Source: Amycolatopsis solani (GTDB lineage Bacteria; Actinomycetota; Actinomycetes; Mycobacteriales; Pseudonocardiaceae). From it: DNA of 64,000 nucleotides. A program made the position numbers and the translations under genes. The DNA lies in assembly GCF_033441515.1 (NCBI RefSeq), contig NZ_JAWQJT010000002.1, positions 1,240,001 to 1,304,000 of the forward strand. The letters run 5' to 3'. Shown piece by piece: positions 14,923 to 21,956 of this stretch. Positions within the stretch are counted from its first letter, which is position 1. The number at the start of each line of letters is the position of its first letter. The notes under the pieces were generated by a model, which saw only the letters and a program-made list of their open reading frames with translations, was not told where the DNA came from and made no database searches.

Positions 14923-17900
14923 TCAGTCTTCCCGCGCCCGGGCGATCACCTCTTCCAGCCGCAGCGGGCTCGCCGGGTGGTGGGACAGGCACAGCGGCGT
15001 CGCCACCTGGCGGAACCCGAACGCCTCCCCGGCCACGTAGAACTGCGCGCGCTCCAGCCGTGAGATGTCCGCGACCGGGCTGCCCTTCGCACGGGCCAGC
15101 TCGTTGGCCGCGGCGATCTGGGCCGGGCTGTTGAGGCGGCCGAAGAACTGCGTCATCGCGTTGCCGACCACCTGGTTGTGCAGCCCCTTCGGCGCTTGCG
15201 TGGCGAAGAGCAGGCCGAGCCCGTACTTGCGGGCCTGGGAAGCGAGCACGATCGTGCTGCGCGTACTCGCCGTGAGACTCCCCGAAGACGCCATGGTCTG
15301 CGCCTCGTCCATCACGAACAACGCCCCCAGCGGCCGGTCCCCCGCCGGGTTGCGCTTGATCCAGGCGAACAGCTCCATCTGCAGCTGGTTGACGAAGTTC
15401 TGCCGCTGCTCCTCGGCCTGCAACCCGACGAAGCTGATCACCGAAACGCGCGCCCGCTTCCCGTCGGCGGGGGTCAGCAACACGCCCGGATCGACGGGTT
15501 CACCGCCGCCGGCGAAGAGCGGGTCGTTGACCATCGCCGCCTTGAGCACCTCGGCCAGCCCCGCGGCGATGCGCTTGGCGTCGTTGAGGTTGCTGACGTC
15601 CTCGGGCAGGTCGGTCAGCAGCTCGATGAGCGCCGGCAGGCTCCGCGACCCGGTCCGCGCGTGCTGCACGACCGCCTGCCGCAGGACGGCCAGCCCGATG
15701 TTGGTCTTCGCGGTGGTCCCGGTCAGCCGCGCCTGCGGCGCCAGCGTCGCCACGGCCACCTCGACGGCCGCGGCGAACTCGTCGGAGTCGTCGAGCACGC
15801 CGGCGAAGTCCGGCAGCGGCTGGAAGGCGAGCGGCCGCCCGGTCGCCCGCCCCGGCGTCCAGACGACGACGTCCGTCTCGGCCAGGTACCGCTTCGCGAG
15901 CTGGGCGTCATCGGGCCCCCAGCTGTCCGGCGGAACGGGCCAGGCGTCACCGAGCCGGGCGAGGTCGTTGTTCGGGTCGAGGACGATCGCGGAGACCCCG
16001 AGGAGCGCGCACTCCTCGACGATCCGCCGCAGCAGCACGGTCTTCCCGGACCCGGACCCCGCGAAGACGGCGGCGTGCTTGCGCAGCGCGGAGAGCTCGA
16101 CCCGAACCGGCTCCCCGGAGCCGACTACGGTCCCGAGCGTGATCTCCCCCTCAGCCGGCGGCGGATGAGTCCCTTCGGCAGGCTGCCCCGACGGCTTCTC
16201 CGGCAGGACGGCGGACAAGAGTTCGGAACGGCTGGCGGGCCGTCGATCGATGAGCCACTCGTGCAGCTCGCGGCCGCCGTTGGCGAGCATCTTGTCGAGG
16301 GCCCAGAAGATCCGGACGTCGGCCGGGTTCGGCGGGATCGTCTTGCCGCCCGCGGTCGTGAACTTGTCCACCTCTTCCCGTGTCTTGGCGCCCTTCCCCC
16401 AGGCGTCCCGGAGGATGACGAGGTGCCGGTTGTCCGCCCCTTGCCGCTGCCCGGCCGCGGACCGCGCCTTCCGGAACCGGCTCAGCGCGGCACGCGGATC
16501 GCGCGCGGGGATCGCCCGGAACGCCCAGTGCTCCTGGAGGTCCGCGGCTTCGTCGAGGGTCCGGGTGAGCCAGGCGTGCACCTCACTCCGCGCGTTCTGC
16601 CGCTCGCAGGACCACTCGAGATCATCGTCCCCGACTTCGGTGACCCAGCACCGCAAGGCGGCGGAGAGCAGATCCGGCATGGCCTTGTCGACGCTCTTTT
16701 CCCCCAGCAGCTTCCCCGGATCGGCTTCGGCTTGCAGCTTCTCGAACTCGGCGTCTAGCTCGGCGAACCGATCGCTTTCGACGGCAGTCCGAACGGGCGG
16801 GGTCGGCACCGGGGCCTTCTCGTCGAAGGAGGTCAGCTCCCGGACCTGCCCGCTGCGCAGGCAGGCGTCGATGTGCGCGCCGATCCGCTTCAGCAGCTCG
16901 CGCGGGGTCCATTGCTCCCAAGGTCCTTCGAAAGCCGCGGGTGCCACCGGCCAGGTCGGGTGCGGTGGGGCGAAACCCATGGCCTGATAGGCCACCCCGA
17001 GCCGTTTCCCCACCAGGGCCCGGCCCGTCTCGGCGCGGGTGATCCGGCCGAGCGTCACCGATTCGCGGAAGCGATCGGGCACGGTTCCCGCTGCTTTCGT
17101 CCGGATCTGCTCCCATGTGCTCGGCAGGCACGCGAGCACCGTCAGGGTCTTGTGGGTGACTTCCCGCAAGCCCATGAGCCCGTCTGCGATCTGCGCGACG
17201 AGGAGGTCGTCCTGGACGTTCTGGCCGATTTCCTGGGTGCGCTGCGTCGACCGGGCGATCAGGGTGTCGAGCTGGTCGACGGCGATCACGACCGGACCGG
17301 TCAAAGCCAGCAGCCGCGTGATTTCCTCCACGAGCACACGAGCGGGCTTGGGGCGCGCGTAGATGTTCCACTGGCGGGCATCGGAGGTCAGCTCGGCGTC
17401 GCCGTCGAGGTAGTCCTCGCCGATGTACTTGACGCCGCGGTCCCGGCTCGCGACGAGCACGAGCGCCCGCGCGGTGTCCTCACAGTGCTCGGCGACCATC
17501 TCGTCCAGGCGGCGCACGCCGTCGACGAACGCCTCGATGTCGTCGACAGTGAGTCCGCTGCCGCGGCGGATCCTGGCCGTGACCTCGGCGCTGACCTGGG
17601 CCCGGAGGCACACGCGCAGGAGGAAGCTCTTCAGCTGCGACTCCCCCGATTCGTCCAGCCGCGCCAAACCGCGACGCAGTGCCTCGGCCGTGTTGTCCCA
17701 GAACGCCTCGGCGGCGGTCACGTCGTCGAGGAAGAAGTAGCCCCGCGCGCGGTGCACGTGCCGGCGGACGAGACCCAGGAGGTGCGTCTTGCCGACCCCC
17801 TTCAACCCGCGAAGGACGAGCCCGATCGGACTCGGTCCGTCGCTGGCCACGGCATCGCGGATCCCCGTGTCGAGAGCGGCGAGCGCGTCGTCGTGCAGTC

Positions 17901-17997
17901 CGTCGACGTGGTACGGCGAATCCCGCCAGACGTGGTCGGGCGTGTCGGCCCAGTCGAATCTCAGCGTCGCGAGTGCGGTCAGCTCGTCCATCGTCAC
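14923..17997 (-). CDS. Double P-loop ATPase: N-terminal AAA module plus C-terminal HerA-like translocase
   Basis: A 1024-residue cytoplasmic protein with two complete NTPase modules. Residues about 20-380: AAA/Orc-like, Walker A GLKGVGKT (64-71), Walker B VVIAVDQLD (236-244). Residues about 400-600: helical linker. Residues about 618-1024: HerA/VirB4-like, Walker A AGSGSGKT (646-653), LDPNNDLARLG after strand 2, Walker B LFVMDEAQ (893-900) and sensor-like LLFATQAPKGL (929-939). HerA-like proteins are ring motors that move DNA and serve as the ATPase of several anti-phage systems. GTG start overlaps the winged-helix stop (GTGA) with GAGG just upstream. It is the last of four coupled genes (TIR, KGGVGR ATPase, winged helix, this). 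An effector domain is absent, so killing is presumably done by the TIR proteins (inference). Confidence 0.85.
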   Translation of the reverse strand: MTMDELTALATLRFDWADTPDHVWRDSPYHVDGLHDDALAALDTGIRDAVASDGPSPIGLVLRGLKGVGKTHLLGLVRRHVHRARGYFFLDDVTAAEAFWDNTAEALRRGLARLDESGESQLKSFLLRVCLRAQVSAEVTARIRRGSGLTVDDIEAFVDGVRRLDEMVAEHCEDTARALVLVASRDRGVKYIGEDYLDGDAELTSDARQWNIYARPKPARVLVEEITRLLALTGPVVIAVDQLDTLIARSTQRTQEIGQNVQDDLLVAQIADGLMGLREVTHKTLTVLACLPSTWEQIRTKAAGTVPDRFRESVTLGRITRAETGRALVGKRLGVAYQAMGFAPPHPTWPVAPAAFEGPWEQWTPRELLKRIGAHIDACLRSGQVRELTSFDEKAPVPTPPVRTAVESDRFAELDAEFEKLQAEADPGKLLGEKSVDKAMPDLLSAALRCWVTEVGDDDLEWSCERQNARSEVHAWLTRTLDEAADLQEHWAFRAIPARDPRAALSRFRKARSAAGQRQGADNRHLVILRDAWGKGAKTREEVDKFTTAGGKTIPPNPADVRIFWALDKMLANGGRELHEWLIDRRPASRSELLSAVLPEKPSGQPAEGTHPPPAEGEITLGTVVGSGEPVRVELSALRKHAAVFAGSGSGKTVLLRRIVEECALLGVSAIVLDPNNDLARLGDAWPVPPDSWGPDDAQLAKRYLAETDVVVWTPGRATGRPLAFQPLPDFAGVLDDSDEFAAAVEVAVATLAPQARLTGTTAKTNIGLAVLRQAVVQHARTGSRSLPALIELLTDLPEDVSNLNDAKRIAAGLAEVLKAAMVNDPLFAGGGEPVDPGVLLTPADGKRARVSVISFVGLQAEEQRQNFVNQLQMELFAWIKRNPAGDRPLGALFVMDEAQTMASSGSLTASTRSTIVLASQARKYGLGLLFATQAPKGLHNQVVGNAMTQFFGRLNSPAQIAAANELARAKGSPVADISRLERAQFYVAGEAFGFRQVATPLCLSHHPASPLRLEEVIARARED

Positions 17998-18620
17998 GAC
18001 ACCTCGATCGAAATCAGGTGGTTGTCCTCACCGCCGATGCGGATCGCCGCTTCGCGATCCGCGGTGGTGAGCGACTTGCGGTTCTCCTCGGGGACGAGGT
18101 GCACCTTCCCCGCGCTGCTCAGTTCCTTCAGCACCGCGTCGACTTCCGCCGCGGACGCGCCCACCTTCGGCCGGAGGTCCACCAGGCCGACCCAGCCGCG
18201 AGGCTCCTTGACGAGCTCGTGGTAAGCCGCGCGGATGCGGTCTTCCAGGGATTCGGACCCGGTCGGGGGGAAAACGTCGAACAACCGCAGGTTCGCCCGG
18301 CGGAGGTAGTCGTCCAGCCGGCCGAGGATGACGTACAGCGCCGCCGCCAGTGGGCTCTGGCCCCGCTGAGGCGGCGGCCCACCCACCGCGAGCTCCTCCT
18401 CGCACCAAGCCCACCCGCTGTCGCTCAGCACGTGGACGAAACTCCGCTTGGGCCCCGTCCGGTCGCTGTCCACATACCCGAGCTTGTTCAACCCCGTGCG
18501 CTCAGTGCCCGTCAGGGTGAACCCGACGACTTCCTCCAGCTCTTGGTTGGACACCTCCCGGCCCAGCACCATCAGCGTGAACATCGCCGCGGTCTGCTTC
18601 TGTCCCAAGCGGTCCGTCAT
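17994..18620 (-). CDS. Winged-helix protein of the TIR/ATPase operon
   Basis: A 208-residue protein. Residues about 10-75 (AAMFTLMVLGREVSNQELEE, TGTERTGLNKLGYVDSDR, VHVLSDSGWAWCEEELA) fit a winged helix-turn-helix; residues about 95-160 form a helical region and the C-terminus (DREAAIRIGGEDNHLISIEVS) is beta-rich. No enzyme motif is visible. Its ATG overlaps the upstream stop (ATGA) and its stop overlaps the next start (GTGA), so it is made in step with both ATPases. It may bind DNA as the sensor or act as an adaptor between the ATPases. Confidence 0.7.
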   Translation of the reverse strand: MTDRLGQKQTAAMFTLMVLGREVSNQELEEVVGFTLTGTERTGLNKLGYVDSDRTGPKRSFVHVLSDSGWAWCEEELAVGGPPPQRGQSPLAAALYVILGRLDDYLRRANLRLFDVFPPTGSESLEDRIRAAYHELVKEPRGWVGLVDLRPKVGASAAEVDAVLKELSSAGKVHLVPEENRKSLTTADREAAIRIGGEDNHLISIEVS

Positions 18621-20233
18621 TCGAGATCCTTCCGGTGCTGCGTCGTGGTTTTCGCGCGGGTTTCGAGGAGGCGCAAGAGCCACTCGATCGCGTGGCGGGT
18701 CGGCTGCGGGGCGGCGTCGCGGACGTCGCCGTTCGGGGGGCGGGCTCGGGTGGCCACCGCCAGGTCGGCCGCGAGGTCGTTGGCGCGGGCGTCGTCGCCG
18801 GCGCCGATGGCCGCGCGGAGGCCGTCGAGGAGCTCGTCGACCAGGTCCCAGCGGGAGGGGCGCAGGCGCGCGTCGCGGGCCTGGTGCAGGACTTCGGCGA
18901 CGTCGAGTGCTTCGAGCAGCGGGGTGAAGCCGCGGAGCTGGCCGACCAGGTCGCGGGCCACCTCCGCCGGGCCACGGGCGCCGAGGCGGAGGTAGCGCAG
19001 GTTGCCGACGTAGCCCGGGAGGCCCGCGGCCTCCGTGCCGGACGTCAGGACCGGGATGACGCGGCGGTCCTGGCCGAGCGTGCGGTGCAGGAACAGCTCG
19101 ACCTCCGCCGCCTGCCAGCGGCTCACCTTGCCGTCGACGACCAGGCACAGGTGGCGGGCGTCGTCCTCGGCCCTGGACAGCAGCGTGCGGTCGCCCGACA
19201 GGGACTTGACCACCCGGACGTCCAGCTTCTGCAGCTCAGCGATCAGCTCGGCGGCCGGTCCGACCGACGATCTCGGGATGCTGACCCGCAGTTCGTGCTT
19301 GAACTCCTGGCGGCTCGCGCGCACCGCCGCCACGTAGGCGTCGCGGTTCTCCGCCAGCAGGTCGGTGCGGTCGAGGCGGCAGGCGATCACCGCGGCGACC
19401 GTCTCCAGCGCGAACCCGATCTGGTCCGCGCTCGGGGTCTTCTCCGACAGCACCGGCAGCTGCTCGCCGAAACTCCAGTACGACACGTACGGCAGCGTGA
19501 GGTGCCGGGACATCGTCTCCGGGGCGACGCCTTGGTCCAGCCACGTCCGGTACAGCTCGGCCGTCTCCCCGACGACGATCCGGCGCCACTCCTCCGACCG
19601 GCCGTACTCCTCCCGGTTGTCGAAGCGCGACAGGATCGGCAGGACGGTCAGCCGGGACCGGTCGAACGGCAGCAGGTTCCGCGCCTTGTCGGCGCGTCCG
19701 GCCAGGTCCAGCGCGCCGCGGATGCTCTGCCGGTTCGCCGTGAACAGCAGCACCAGGTGGTCCGGCAGGTGCGCGGTGCAGATGCTCCCGATGTCGGAGA
19801 TCCCGGTGCGGCTGTCGATGAGCACGAAGTCGTACTCCGCGGTCCACTGCTCCCGGCACTTCTCGAGGTATTCGCCGAACCCCTCGTCGTACAGGTCGTC
19901 CCAGTCGATCGCCTGGACCTGGCCGACGTACCCGGGCCCCTCGCTCCCGGCCGCGATGAAGTCGAGCGCGCGGGCGCCCCGCAGCCGCATGACGTGCGCG
20001 CCCGGCGCGAACCGGCCGGCCCGGAAGTCCGCGACGAGGTCGACCACGCCGCCGCGGGGCCGGCCCGGCAGCTGCGGCCGGAAGTAGTCGCCGAGGCCGG
20101 GTGCTTCGAGGTCCCAGTCCAGGCACAGCACCCGGTGGCCCCAGCGCGCCAGGAGCACGGCGATGTTGGCCAGCGTGAAGCTGCGACCGACGCCGCCCTT
20201 GTAGGAGTAGAAGGTGAAGACCGAACCCGGCAT
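18617..20233 (-). CDS. MinD/ParA-like KGGVGR ATPase with C-terminal TIR-like domain
   Basis: A 538-residue protein. Residues 1-290 are a SIMIBI-class ATPase with the deviant Walker A YKGGVGRSFT (11-20; Arg where MinD has the final Lys-Thr context), switch I DWDLEAPGLG (39-48) and Walker B FVLIDSRTG (136-144). Residues about 313-425 look like a divergent TIR fold: repeated buried strands (HLCLVVD, RVIPVLTSG, YLRLG) and VSRWQAAEVELFL, in which Glu377 sits where TIR NADases have the catalytic Glu of the W-C-x-x-E motif. A helical tail of about 110 residues follows. It is coupled to the TIR gene (3-base gap) and to the winged-helix gene (ATGA). KGGVGR ATPases are known from predicted conflict systems; that this one gates TIR activity is inference. 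Confidence 0.8.
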   Translation of the reverse strand: MPGSVFTFYSYKGGVGRSFTLANIAVLLARWGHRVLCLDWDLEAPGLGDYFRPQLPGRPRGGVVDLVADFRAGRFAPGAHVMRLRGARALDFIAAGSEGPGYVGQVQAIDWDDLYDEGFGEYLEKCREQWTAEYDFVLIDSRTGISDIGSICTAHLPDHLVLLFTANRQSIRGALDLAGRADKARNLLPFDRSRLTVLPILSRFDNREEYGRSEEWRRIVVGETAELYRTWLDQGVAPETMSRHLTLPYVSYWSFGEQLPVLSEKTPSADQIGFALETVAAVIACRLDRTDLLAENRDAYVAAVRASRQEFKHELRVSIPRSSVGPAAELIAELQKLDVRVVKSLSGDRTLLSRAEDDARHLCLVVDGKVSRWQAAEVELFLHRTLGQDRRVIPVLTSGTEAAGLPGYVGNLRYLRLGARGPAEVARDLVGQLRGFTPLLEALDVAEVLHQARDARLRPSRWDLVDELLDGLRAAIGAGDDARANDLAADLAVATRARPPNGDVRDAAPQPTRHAIEWLLRLLETRAKTTTQHRKDLE

Positions 20234-20236
20234 CCG

Positions 20237-20830
20237 TCAGAACCTCGGTATCCGCGCCGGCTTCGGCGGCTCGGCCGCCGGGGTCAGCACCGGCCAGTCC
20301 GCCCGCCAATCCGGCGCTCGTTCGATGAGTTCTTCGAGTTCCTTGGCGATTTCCGCGATCTTGTGGTTGAACTCGAGGTACGCCGGCGCCAGCTGGAAGT
20401 GCTCGAACGGGTGGTTCCACTGCTGCAGGTCACGCATGCGCCGCTCGTGCGCCCAGTCCGGGAAGTTCCGCGAGTCGCAGAAGATCACCGGGTAGATGAG
20501 CGGGCCCGTGGTCAGCTCCTCGCGCTTCGCCATCGAGTACCACTCGGCCAGACACCATTCGTCCCGGAAGTACTTCGGCGAGCACACTGGAACCAGCACG
20601 CGGGTGTGCTGCAACGCCGTGCGCCATTCGTCCGGCCAGCTCGTGCCGGTGGGCACCCGGTCGTCGCAGAATATCCGCGCGTCGCGGTAGAGGTTGTTGT
20701 CGAGAACCTCCGCCAGCCGGGGGTGGAAATGGTTTTTCACCCACGCGGAAATGTCCCGGCCGGTGCGTTGGTAGCTGATGAACACGTCGTACTCGTACAC
20801 GCGTGCCTTCGCTCCTTCGCCGCTCCCCAC
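20237..20830 (-). CDS. TIR domain protein, probable NAD-consuming effector
   Basis: A 197-residue protein made of a TIR domain (about 12-150) plus a short Pro-rich tail. It shows YEYDVFISYQRTGRD at strand A, ARIFCDDRVPTGTSW in the BB-loop region, VLVPVCSPKYFRDEWCLAEW with Glu96 at the catalytic position of NAD-cleaving TIRs, and PLIYPVIFCDSRNFPDW. It is the first gene of the four-gene operon. GTG 20830 gives the longest frame without a clear ribosome site; GTG 20803 has GGAG upstream and would still include all of the TIR domain. Bacterial TIR proteins degrade or cyclise NAD in phage-triggered cell death; that role here is inferred from motif and context. Confidence 0.85.
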   Translation of the reverse strand: MGSGEGAKARVYEYDVFISYQRTGRDISAWVKNHFHPRLAEVLDNNLYRDARIFCDDRVPTGTSWPDEWRTALQHTRVLVPVCSPKYFRDEWCLAEWYSMAKREELTTGPLIYPVIFCDSRNFPDWAHERRMRDLQQWNHPFEHFQLAPAYLEFNHKIAEIAKELEELIERAPDWRADWPVLTPAAEPPKPARIPRF

Positions 20831-20944
20831 CAGGCATCGGTCATCCTAAGCCGGTCCCGAGCGGCCGGGAAAGGCGCGAAACTGGACAGAACCATGCCAA
20901 TACCTGGCCACCACTGGACAATATCGGCCGCCCACTCGAAAGCC

Positions 20945-20974
20945 TTGACAAATGCGGAATCGGCGCATCATCGT
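20945..20974 (+). promoter_or_regulatory. Candidate promoter giving a leaderless SEFIR mRNA
   Basis: A consensus -35 TTGACA at 20945-20950 is followed after 18 bases by CATCGT (20969-20974), a weak -10. Transcription would begin about 20981-20982, exactly at the ATG of the SEFIR gene, which has no ribosome-binding site. Leaderless mRNAs are common in actinobacteria. The same 150-base gap must hold the oppositely directed promoter of the TIR operon; two copies of ACTGGACA (about 20881 and 20911) lie within it. Confidence 0.45.
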
Positions 20975-20981
20975 TTTGCCG

Positions 20982-21956
20982 ATGACCGACCGTGAAGCGC
21001 CCCGGGTGTTCGTCACCTACTCCCACGACTCCCCGGAACACCAGGATCTCGTGCACGAGTTCGCGTCGTTTCTGCGCACGGCCATCGGCTTGGACGTCCA
21101 CCTGGACCTCTGGTACGACAACGTGCGCCGGGACTGGTCGTTGTGGGCCACCGAGAACCTCGCCGAGGCAGATTTCATCCTCGTGATCGCGTCGCCCGCC
21201 TACAAGCGGCGCGCCGACGGCACCGCGATGCCCCACGAGGGCCGGGGAGCGCAGTTCGAAGCGGCGATCATCCGCGACAACCTGACCCGTGACTTGCGCC
21301 GGGAGACCGAGCGCGTGCTGCCCGTCGTACTGCCGGGCCGCTCGATCGACGAGATCCCGGCCTTCCTCAACGCCCACTCGACGACGAGGTACACCGTCCC
21401 CGAATTCACCGGGCCCGGGGTCGCCGGCCTCGTCGCCGCGATCACCGGACAGGGCCAGTACCCGATGCCCCGTCGCGGAACCTGGCTCGGCGGAGCCCTT
21501 GCGCCACGCGAAGTACCCGCGGGTGAGCTGCCGTGGCTGTGCGCCAGCAACGGCGTGCGCCGCGGCCCGGCGTCGATCGGCGGGACGCGGTACGAAGAAA
21601 GCATCGTGCTGCGCCCGACGTCGCCGACCGCGACCGGAACCGGGTTCGTGGAGCTGGAACTCGGCGGCAACTACCAGCGGTTCAGCACCGTCGCCGGGGT
21701 CCCCGACGACGCCGCCGACGAGTTCCAGGTCGGCCGGGTGCGCGTGGTACTCGACGGGACCCCGCGTGCCCAGCACGACGTCACCGCCGGGAAGCCCGCC
21801 ACCATCGACCTGGACGTGACCGGCGCCCGGCTGCTGCGAGTCGAAATGTCGCGCCCGGGAGCGCCGGCGTCGCCGTTCGGGTCCTCGGCCGTCGTCGTCA
21901 CCCGGCGGGGTGGGCGCCCGCCCGAGCTGGCGCTGGGCGACCCCACCATGACCTAG
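20982..21956 (+). CDS. SEFIR domain protein with NPCBM-like C-terminal domain
   Basis: A 324-residue protein. Residues about 5-150 are a SEFIR (TIR-related) domain: RVFVTYSHDSPEHQDLVHEF, GLDVHLDLWYDNVRRDWSLW, ADFILVIASPAYKRRADG and GRGAQFEAAIIRDNL. After a linker, residues about 190-320 resemble an NPCBM-type beta-sandwich: FVELELGGNYQRFSTVAGVP, VRVVLDGTPRAQHDV and TIDLDVTGARLLRVEMSRPG. No signal peptide is visible. It is transcribed away from the TIR operon from a shared 150-base gap. ATG 20982 is chosen because the predicted promoter starts there; ATG 20952 would add ten residues. A sensor or second effector of the same system is plausible but unproven. Confidence 0.8.
   Translation: MTDREAPRVFVTYSHDSPEHQDLVHEFASFLRTAIGLDVHLDLWYDNVRRDWSLWATENLAEADFILVIASPAYKRRADGTAMPHEGRGAQFEAAIIRDNLTRDLRRETERVLPVVLPGRSIDEIPAFLNAHSTTRYTVPEFTGPGVAGLVAAITGQGQYPMPRRGTWLGGALAPREVPAGELPWLCASNGVRRGPASIGGTRYEESIVLRPTSPTATGTGFVELELGGNYQRFSTVAGVPDDAADEFQVGRVRVVLDGTPRAQHDVTAGKPATIDLDVTGARLLRVEMSRPGAPASPFGSSAVVVTRRGGRPPELALGDPTMT

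Follow-up and report, generated by a model that had tools for sequence, protein, structure and literature searches.

Relation to Described Systems

The closest described relatives of the locus studied here are the HerA/FtsK capture systems, which are proposed to intercept invader DNA and which bring together a HerA/FtsK motor, Orc/CDC6 AAA+ modules, an inactive restriction endonuclease (REase), an active REase, and a winged helix-turn-helix (wHTH) protein; TIR domains fused to Orc/CDC6 occur in related neighborhoods (Rakesh, Aravind & Krishnan 2024, PMC10853773). A further paper extends these systems (PMC12839542). A second point of reference is Nezha (SIR2-HerA), in which HerA carries the NADase and phage immunity is reported to be lost when the NADase active site is mutated (PMC11559045). 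Here, we analyzed a four-gene operon in a 64,000-nucleotide stretch of Amycolatopsis solani DNA (contig NZ_JAWQJT010000002.1; we call the whole stretch the window). The operon consists of four intact open reading frames at 14923-20830 on the minus strand, encoding a TIR-domain protein, a KGGVGR-motif MinD/ParA-like ATPase, a tandem winged-helix protein, and an AAA-HerA protein, with a SEFIR-NPCBM gene divergent from it (Table 1). Judged by sequence comparison with its relatives, the operon is a two-gene winged-helix/AAA-HerA core with a partner slot of changing content, and the locus is best read as a variant of the HerA/FtsK capture systems that has a NADase module in the nuclease's place.

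Like the capture systems, the operon has a HerA/FtsK motor (by DUF87 and Foldseek matches) with an AAA+ module and a wHTH protein (by its structure model), and its relatives carry DUF559 partners; its middle domain lacks ExK and has, in the model, a topology like that of an REase. It differs from them in that TIR and KGGVGR stand in the slot of the active REase, that AAA and HerA share one protein, and that a SEFIR gene lies divergently beside the operon. No active REase effector was found in this operon, where TIR and KGGVGR take its place; relatives have DUF559. The AAA module has AAA_22 and AAA_16 matches and Walker motifs and may belong to the Orc/CDC6 clade. Because the active REase is missing, and because assignment to the Orc/CDC6 clade and to an inactive REase is only tentative, the locus is not a member of the capture systems in the strict sense. 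As in Nezha, a NAD-consuming effector (here predicted) is paired with a HerA ATPase, and SIR2-HerA is among the best Foldseek matches. Unlike in Nezha, the effector is a TIR rather than a SIR2, KGGVGR, winged-helix, and AAA parts are added, and HerA is fused to AAA; neither the operon proteins nor the SEFIR protein matched SIR2 in Pfam, NCBIfam, or PADLOC (Pfam and NCBIfam scans covered seven proteins and the PADLOC scan five).

Other systems share single parts with the locus. Thoeris TIR proteins carry a WCxxE glutamate motif, as does the operon TIR, which was aligned here only with plant TIRs. Unlike in Thoeris, no ThsA-type match was found in the seven proteins scanned, and the TIR scored 16.5 bits against ThcB4 (cut-off 220). 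Its top NCBIfam model is FxsC_Nterm, at 61 bits and thus below the cut-off of 130, which sets it apart from the FxsC-type TIR of the FxSxx-COOH system; it is the sole FxsC_Nterm match in its own genome, and other Fxs genes were not searched for. The best PADLOC model for AAA-HerA was mad8 (E 8e-16), which matches the HerA part, whereas none of the other four PADLOC-scanned proteins matched a mad model (genes further away lay outside the scan), and a search of the MADS literature found no description of this gene set. The earlier note on this DNA, made from the sequence alone, could not match the four-part set to a named system. That observation stands: the PADLOC matches for the five proteins include no model of the whole set, and a search of the open-access literature found no description of TIR and KGGVGR with winged helix and HerA or of SEFIR joined to HerA, although absence from print is unproven. 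The four genes do not, however, stand apart as something wholly new: two of them form a winged-helix/AAA-HerA core that takes different partners and comes close to the capture systems.

Proteins of the Operon

The TIR protein matched Pfam TIR_2 (E 1.2e-13), and its profile matched the plant TIR proteins L6, RPP1, and RUN1. In the profile alignment, its WCLAE motif, which includes E96, lies opposite the WCLxE glutamate of L6 and RPP1, the catalytic residue in plant TIRs. E96, C93, and Y87 were invariant in all 40 aligned proteins that remained after near-copies were removed. The TIR is thus a probable NADase by its motifs, in agreement with the earlier note, which had called it a NADase-type TIR with Glu96.

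The same note's MinD-like KGGVGR ATPase was recovered by the AAA_KGGVGR model NF047398 (151.6 bits; cut-off 90). The KGGVGRS loop is invariant in 40/40 aligned proteins, with arginine in every case where a P-loop normally has lysine; the first lysine is conserved across the same 40, as are D39/D41 and DSRT. Since the P-loop lysine is replaced, the protein is perhaps a slow or non-hydrolyzing nucleotide switch. We found no literature description of KGGVGR ATPases under that name; in related papers, MinD/ParA-like domains of other conflict systems are predicted to be inactive (PMC7159879) and CATRA systems are named (PMC8195603). The architecture comprises an NTPase (approximately residues 5-177), a weak TIR-like stretch (approximately 309-440), and a CATASP domain (444-517). 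At E<=0.01, CATASP was detected in 35 of 40 KGGVGR members and TIR_2 in 21. A second TIR in the C terminus was considered but not confirmed: the Pfam TIR_2 score of the window protein is 17.1 (gathering score 28) and hhalign against the TIR profile gave a nonsignificant E of 0.12, and we therefore call the stretch TIR-like only.

The winged-helix protein had no Pfam, NCBIfam, or PADLOC match at E<=1. Its AlphaFold2 model (predicted local distance difference test, pLDDT, 91.0) contains two helix-turn-helix-plus-hairpin (wHTH) units by secondary structure. Foldseek matches were weak and mainly to wHTH proteins (best E 3e-3, none below E 0.001). Its profile found no convincing match in the PDB (best E 0.0039, mostly calmodulin; MarR-type ZitR, 0.023). 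The label winged helix, also given by the earlier note, rests accordingly on predicted secondary structure and on the kind of weak matches obtained.

AAA-HerA (model pLDDT 85.4) is composed of an AAA+ module (approximately residues 20-320), a middle domain (approximately 436-555), and a HerA translocase (approximately 615-1024). Pfam assigned DUF87/HerA (E 2.4e-10) and AAA_22 (E 1.7e-6), with AAA_16 matching too, and Foldseek with the HerA part retrieved HerA-NurA, SIR2-HerA, and the coupling protein TrwB, the best E to HerA structures being 5.5e-11. Both Walker A lysines, K70 and K652, and D897-E898 of HerA are invariant in 50/50 AAA-HerA proteins. The note had described two full P-loop modules, the second HerA-like. 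In the model, the elements of residues 436-555 follow the order helix, three strands, helix, strand, helix, strand, with the strands arranged as in an REase-like fold, and HWxFR stands at the expected ExK site.

Conservation of the Gene Set

A scan of genome contigs that used the winged-helix protein as query identified 33 loci, and genome searches added more; because those 33 were found with the window's own protein, counts lean toward Pseudonocardiaceae. All four genes could be placed in 43 loci, or 42 distinct ones (L077 repeats L013), with start codons picked by profile fit and two loci, L003 and L022, interrupted by contig ends. Gene order was kept in 43/43, and every junction measured between -16 and +76 bases. 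Ratios of nonsynonymous to synonymous substitution (dN/dS) against L001, L005, and L006 were 0.21-0.31 for TIR, 0.30-0.33 for KGGVGR, 0.15-0.20 for the winged helix, 0.10-0.14 for HerA, and 0.21-0.26 for SEFIR. From the kept order, the junctions, and these ratios, conservation of the four genes exceeds chance. Among the 42 TIR-type loci there are 21 different left-hand contexts and 14 right-hand ones; counting a match on either flank as the same context leaves 11 (9-12 by threshold). The closest named relatives of the operon are in Amycolatopsis.

KGGVGR relatives at E<=1e-30 were present in 43 of 200 genomes of the family, with 44 near-full-length matches (one spanning residues 1-443 only) and 4 additional matches spanning only residues ~5-347. 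In all 44 near-full-length loci, AAA-HerA follows downstream at a distance of 583-917 bases and on the same strand, which leaves room for a winged-helix gene, and a fresh AAA-HerA search of 20 of those genomes was positive in 20/20. Among 296 genomes sampled across the phylum, KGGVGR at E<=1e-60 was found in the window's own genome only. The neighborhood search thus finds the operon conserved as a unit, which the earlier note had left as a point to be checked.

The TIR-KGGVGR pair also occurs outside the HerA operon. Around the four partial KGGVGR matches (L158-L161), no HerA or winged-helix profile match was found in 16 kb; in each, as in the operon, the gene immediately upstream of KGGVGR encodes a TIR of the same family. 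The two longer KGGVGR proteins scanned, from L159 and L160, carry C-terminal TPR repeats, whereas in the HerA operon this part consists of the TIR-like stretch and CATASP; L161 shows the NTPase only. Because TIR-KGGVGR pairs also exist without HerA, TIR-KGGVGR looks like a movable cassette. On the simplest reading, KGGVGR would be the partner of TIR, as the earlier note suspected, and the sensing part would be exchanged: TPR repeats when the pair stands alone, winged helix and HerA here.

In Kibdelosporangium (L031 and L032), several tandem stretches are related to the winged-helix protein in its C-terminal part, and HerA is absent.

A Core with Changing Partners

AAA-HerA at E<=1e-30 turned up in 94 of the 397 order genomes searched and in 6 of 396 genomes sampled across the phylum. 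Relatives were found in 3 of 72,556 plasmid records, all with DUF559 (one, from Nonomuraea, is an 11.85 Mb record labeled plasmid), and in none of 50,697 phage records. We retrieved 65 neighborhoods of 9-19 kb around AAA-HerA relatives. The winged-helix profile matched beside HerA in 132 of the 133 loci with a HerA match; the exception, L040, is a short piece, and the match is partial in L106 and interrupted by a contig end in L124.

What stands with this core varies. One partner is a DUF559/MTES_1575 REase-like protein (Pfam E 9.7e-12 and 7e-9 in two representatives), and this DUF559-winged helix-HerA triad is annotated on a Tsukamurella plasmid. Other partners in front of the core are PDC-M02B, mostly with DUF4365 (PDC-M02A), PDC-M55B, and MutS_V. 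A tree of 128 AAA-HerA proteins longer than 950 amino acids, reduced to 101 by dropping rows more than 98.5% identical, was built by a quick method (LG+G4, midpoint root, some long branches flagged). Partner states, which come from crude gene calls and profiles, were TIR and KGGVGR in 49 rows, DUF559 in 18, trypsin-STAND in 7, M02B with or without M02A in 4, AIPR in 4, DUF559 with f24 in 2, f24 in 2, and MutS_V, M55B, and SEFIR only in 1 each; no partner was found in 12 of the 101 (L124 ends at a contig end). The tree needs 18 changes of partner state, against a mean of 48.8 when states are shuffled. The rows with TIR and KGGVGR form one supported clade (99), which belongs to Pseudonocardiaceae; it includes one further row, L058, where SEFIR is present but TIR and KGGVGR are not. 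Copies with different partners occur within one genome, for example in G584, G651, and G723.

Further genes were seen beside the core. The f24 family (600-730 amino acids) stands in front of it, alone or with DUF559, in L118:6842-8656, L090:6880-9075, L110, and L115; two members scanned had no Pfam match, and the family is a candidate unnamed effector. AIPR genes lie directly downstream of AAA-HerA in L105 (by Pfam) and in L106, L108, and L095 (by profile). Trypsin-STAND-WD40 and Trypco1 genes are divergent from the core in L102:4301-8749 and six other rows (Pfam for L102, profile for the others); we did not count them as an exchanged effector, since all seven rows come from a single clade within one family, where the association may be nothing more than synteny. 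By profile, the DUF559 triad is also on the megaplasmid pMaq22A_1p (L155), typed mobilizable, of Methylobacterium aquaticum, an alphaproteobacterium and thus outside Actinomycetota.

The divergent protein matched SEFIR (E 7.4e-17), NPCBM (1.3e-8), and PADLOC bSEFIR (E 2.1e-27); unlike in bSEFIR, the SEFIR domain here comes with NPCBM in a divergent neighbor of a HerA operon. The gene lies divergently in 32 of the 45 loci where a TIR could be seen. Those of the 32 that are in the tree fall in a 36-row subclade (support 100), and the 13 TIR-type loci that lack it fall in its 14-row sister (98). In L058 (refetched at 19 kb as L157), SEFIR stands alone beside the core. Since the tree has a midpoint root, we can only infer the order of assembly that these distributions suggest: the core, then TIR and KGGVGR, then SEFIR.

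Proposed Function and Alternatives

We regard it as somewhat probable that the locus is a modular anti-invader operon, in which a DNA-engaging core is joined to a TIR-KGGVGR effector cassette that acts by NAD depletion. The AAA-HerA motor, together with the winged-helix protein, would assemble on foreign DNA as it enters, replicates, or is packaged, with the AAA module (DQ Walker B) holding the switch. The activated core would turn on TIR through the KGGVGR ATPase, and TIR would consume NAD, so that the infected cell is stopped. SEFIR would either be an additional effector that joined later or respond to the TIR product as its receptor. The DNA-facing role of HerA/AAA and winged helix, already part of the earlier note's working model, is one that we infer as well. 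In relatives, the core stands beside an REase-like nuclease, and here TIR and KGGVGR occupy that position. If true, this would join HerA/FtsK DNA capture and TIR NAD depletion, branches of immunity usually described apart; the same core with different partners would be a natural series for studying how a DNA motor signals an effector to fire, and the operon is a defined setting for finding the function of KGGVGR ATPases. A broader version is conceivable but one that we hold more loosely. In it, the core would be a sensor indifferent to its effector, into which a DNA-cutting enzyme, AIPR, or TIR-KGGVGR is plugged, with KGGVGR as the adaptor between DNA capture and the NADase and SEFIR as a later second NAD-dependent arm; an immune sensor that once led to cleavage of the invader would now lead to death of the cell.

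Several observations weigh against the anti-invader operon as proposed. The AAA Walker B motif is DQxD, not DE, in 50/50 proteins (window 17266-17277, residues 241-244), and with the glutamate replaced by glutamine, the module may bind rather than hydrolyze ATP. TIR and KGGVGR were gained about once (2 changes), so the exchange of nuclease for TIR rests on one event. Eleven loci, including the window, share both flanks, as plain vertical descent would give, and 12 further TIR-type loci have common right-hand neighbors, reflecting either a fixed site or further partners. Copies are not always intact: two of the 44 KGGVGR matches (G530 and G789) have one stop, the TIR of L089 is split across two frames, and L004:9576-11135 (Amycolatopsis bullii) is decayed, with TIR, KGGVGR, and HerA in pieces and the winged-helix gene matched at full length. 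No PADLOC or NCBIfam model describes the whole gene set.

The 12 loci with the common right flank (L028, L029, L082-L084, L088, L089, L092-L094, L096, and L098) are all without SEFIR; downstream of L096 lie a gene without a Pfam match, an HTH_31 gene, and a BTAD/NB-ARC/TPR gene.

The presence of SEFIR raises the alternative of two-step signaling, in which TIR would make a cyclic or modified ADP-ribose signal that SEFIR-NPCBM reads before killing the cell, TIR itself leaving the NAD pool unemptied. Thoeris provides a precedent for TIR-made signals (PMC9503650), and SEFIR is both the usual divergent neighbor of TIR loci and, in L058/L157, the only one of these proteins beside the core. However, the 13 SEFIR-less loci keep TIR and KGGVGR (split TIR in L089 included), so the basic unit can do without SEFIR, and we consider this account unlikely. 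Somewhat less likely still is interference with conjugation or plasmids rather than phages, with HerA, a relative of coupling proteins, capturing incoming plasmid DNA and TIR killing the recipients. The TrwB match of the HerA model, the AAA-HerA relatives on plasmids, and their absence from the phage records fit such a role, but the TIR type was not found on plasmid records, the three matches all being of the DUF559 type.

The operon might also be no immune system but a housekeeping or developmental unit for chromosome segregation or a sporulation checkpoint, equipped with TIR and MinD-like parts. MinD/ParA-like and HerA/FtsK-like parts are known in segregation, and the low dN/dS, the synteny in close Amycolatopsis, and the common right-hand neighbors of the 12-locus group agree with this. 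Yet the patchy spread through the order, the decayed copy in L004, the variable nuclease-like or defense-like partners (DUF559, DUF4365, AIPR), and the different-partner copies within single genomes make it very improbable.

Gene Layout and Intergenic Region

The coordinates and junctions given in the earlier note for four genes in one direction were all reproduced: the gap from TIR to KGGVGR is 3 bases, and the KGGVGR/winged-helix and winged-helix/AAA-HerA overlaps are 4 bases each. Its list of four genes stands, to which the SEFIR-NPCBM gene, CATASP, the TIR-like stretch in KGGVGR, and the middle domain of AAA-HerA are now added.

Table 1. Coordinates of the operon genes, the divergent gene, and the region between them in the window
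Feature	Position	Strand	Details
TIR-domain protein	20237..20830	-	197 aa, GTG start; E96 codon ~20543-20545; Pfam TIR_2
KGGVGR-motif MinD/ParA-like ATPase	18617..20233	-	538 aa; NF047398
Tandem winged-helix protein	17994..18620	-	208 aa; AlphaFold2 model
AAA-HerA protein	14923..17997	-	1024 aa; DUF87 + AAA_22; GTG start at 17997
Divergent SEFIR-NPCBM protein	20952..21956	+	334 aa as listed; homology favors start 20982
TIR/SEFIR intergenic region	20831..20981 (if SEFIR start = 20982)		divergent layout

The TIR and SEFIR starts are separated by 121 bases as listed or by 151 with the homology-based start, and both promoters are probably within 20831-20981. In this region, a sigma-70 consensus search gave no match, and inspection of the aligned loci by eye revealed no clear palindrome or operator. 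Terminator-like sites on the plus strand lie at 20709-20727 and 20952-20968 (0.3 expected). Upstream of the TIR gene, most aligned loci have in common a TGTC-containing block, possibly a promoter or operator element.

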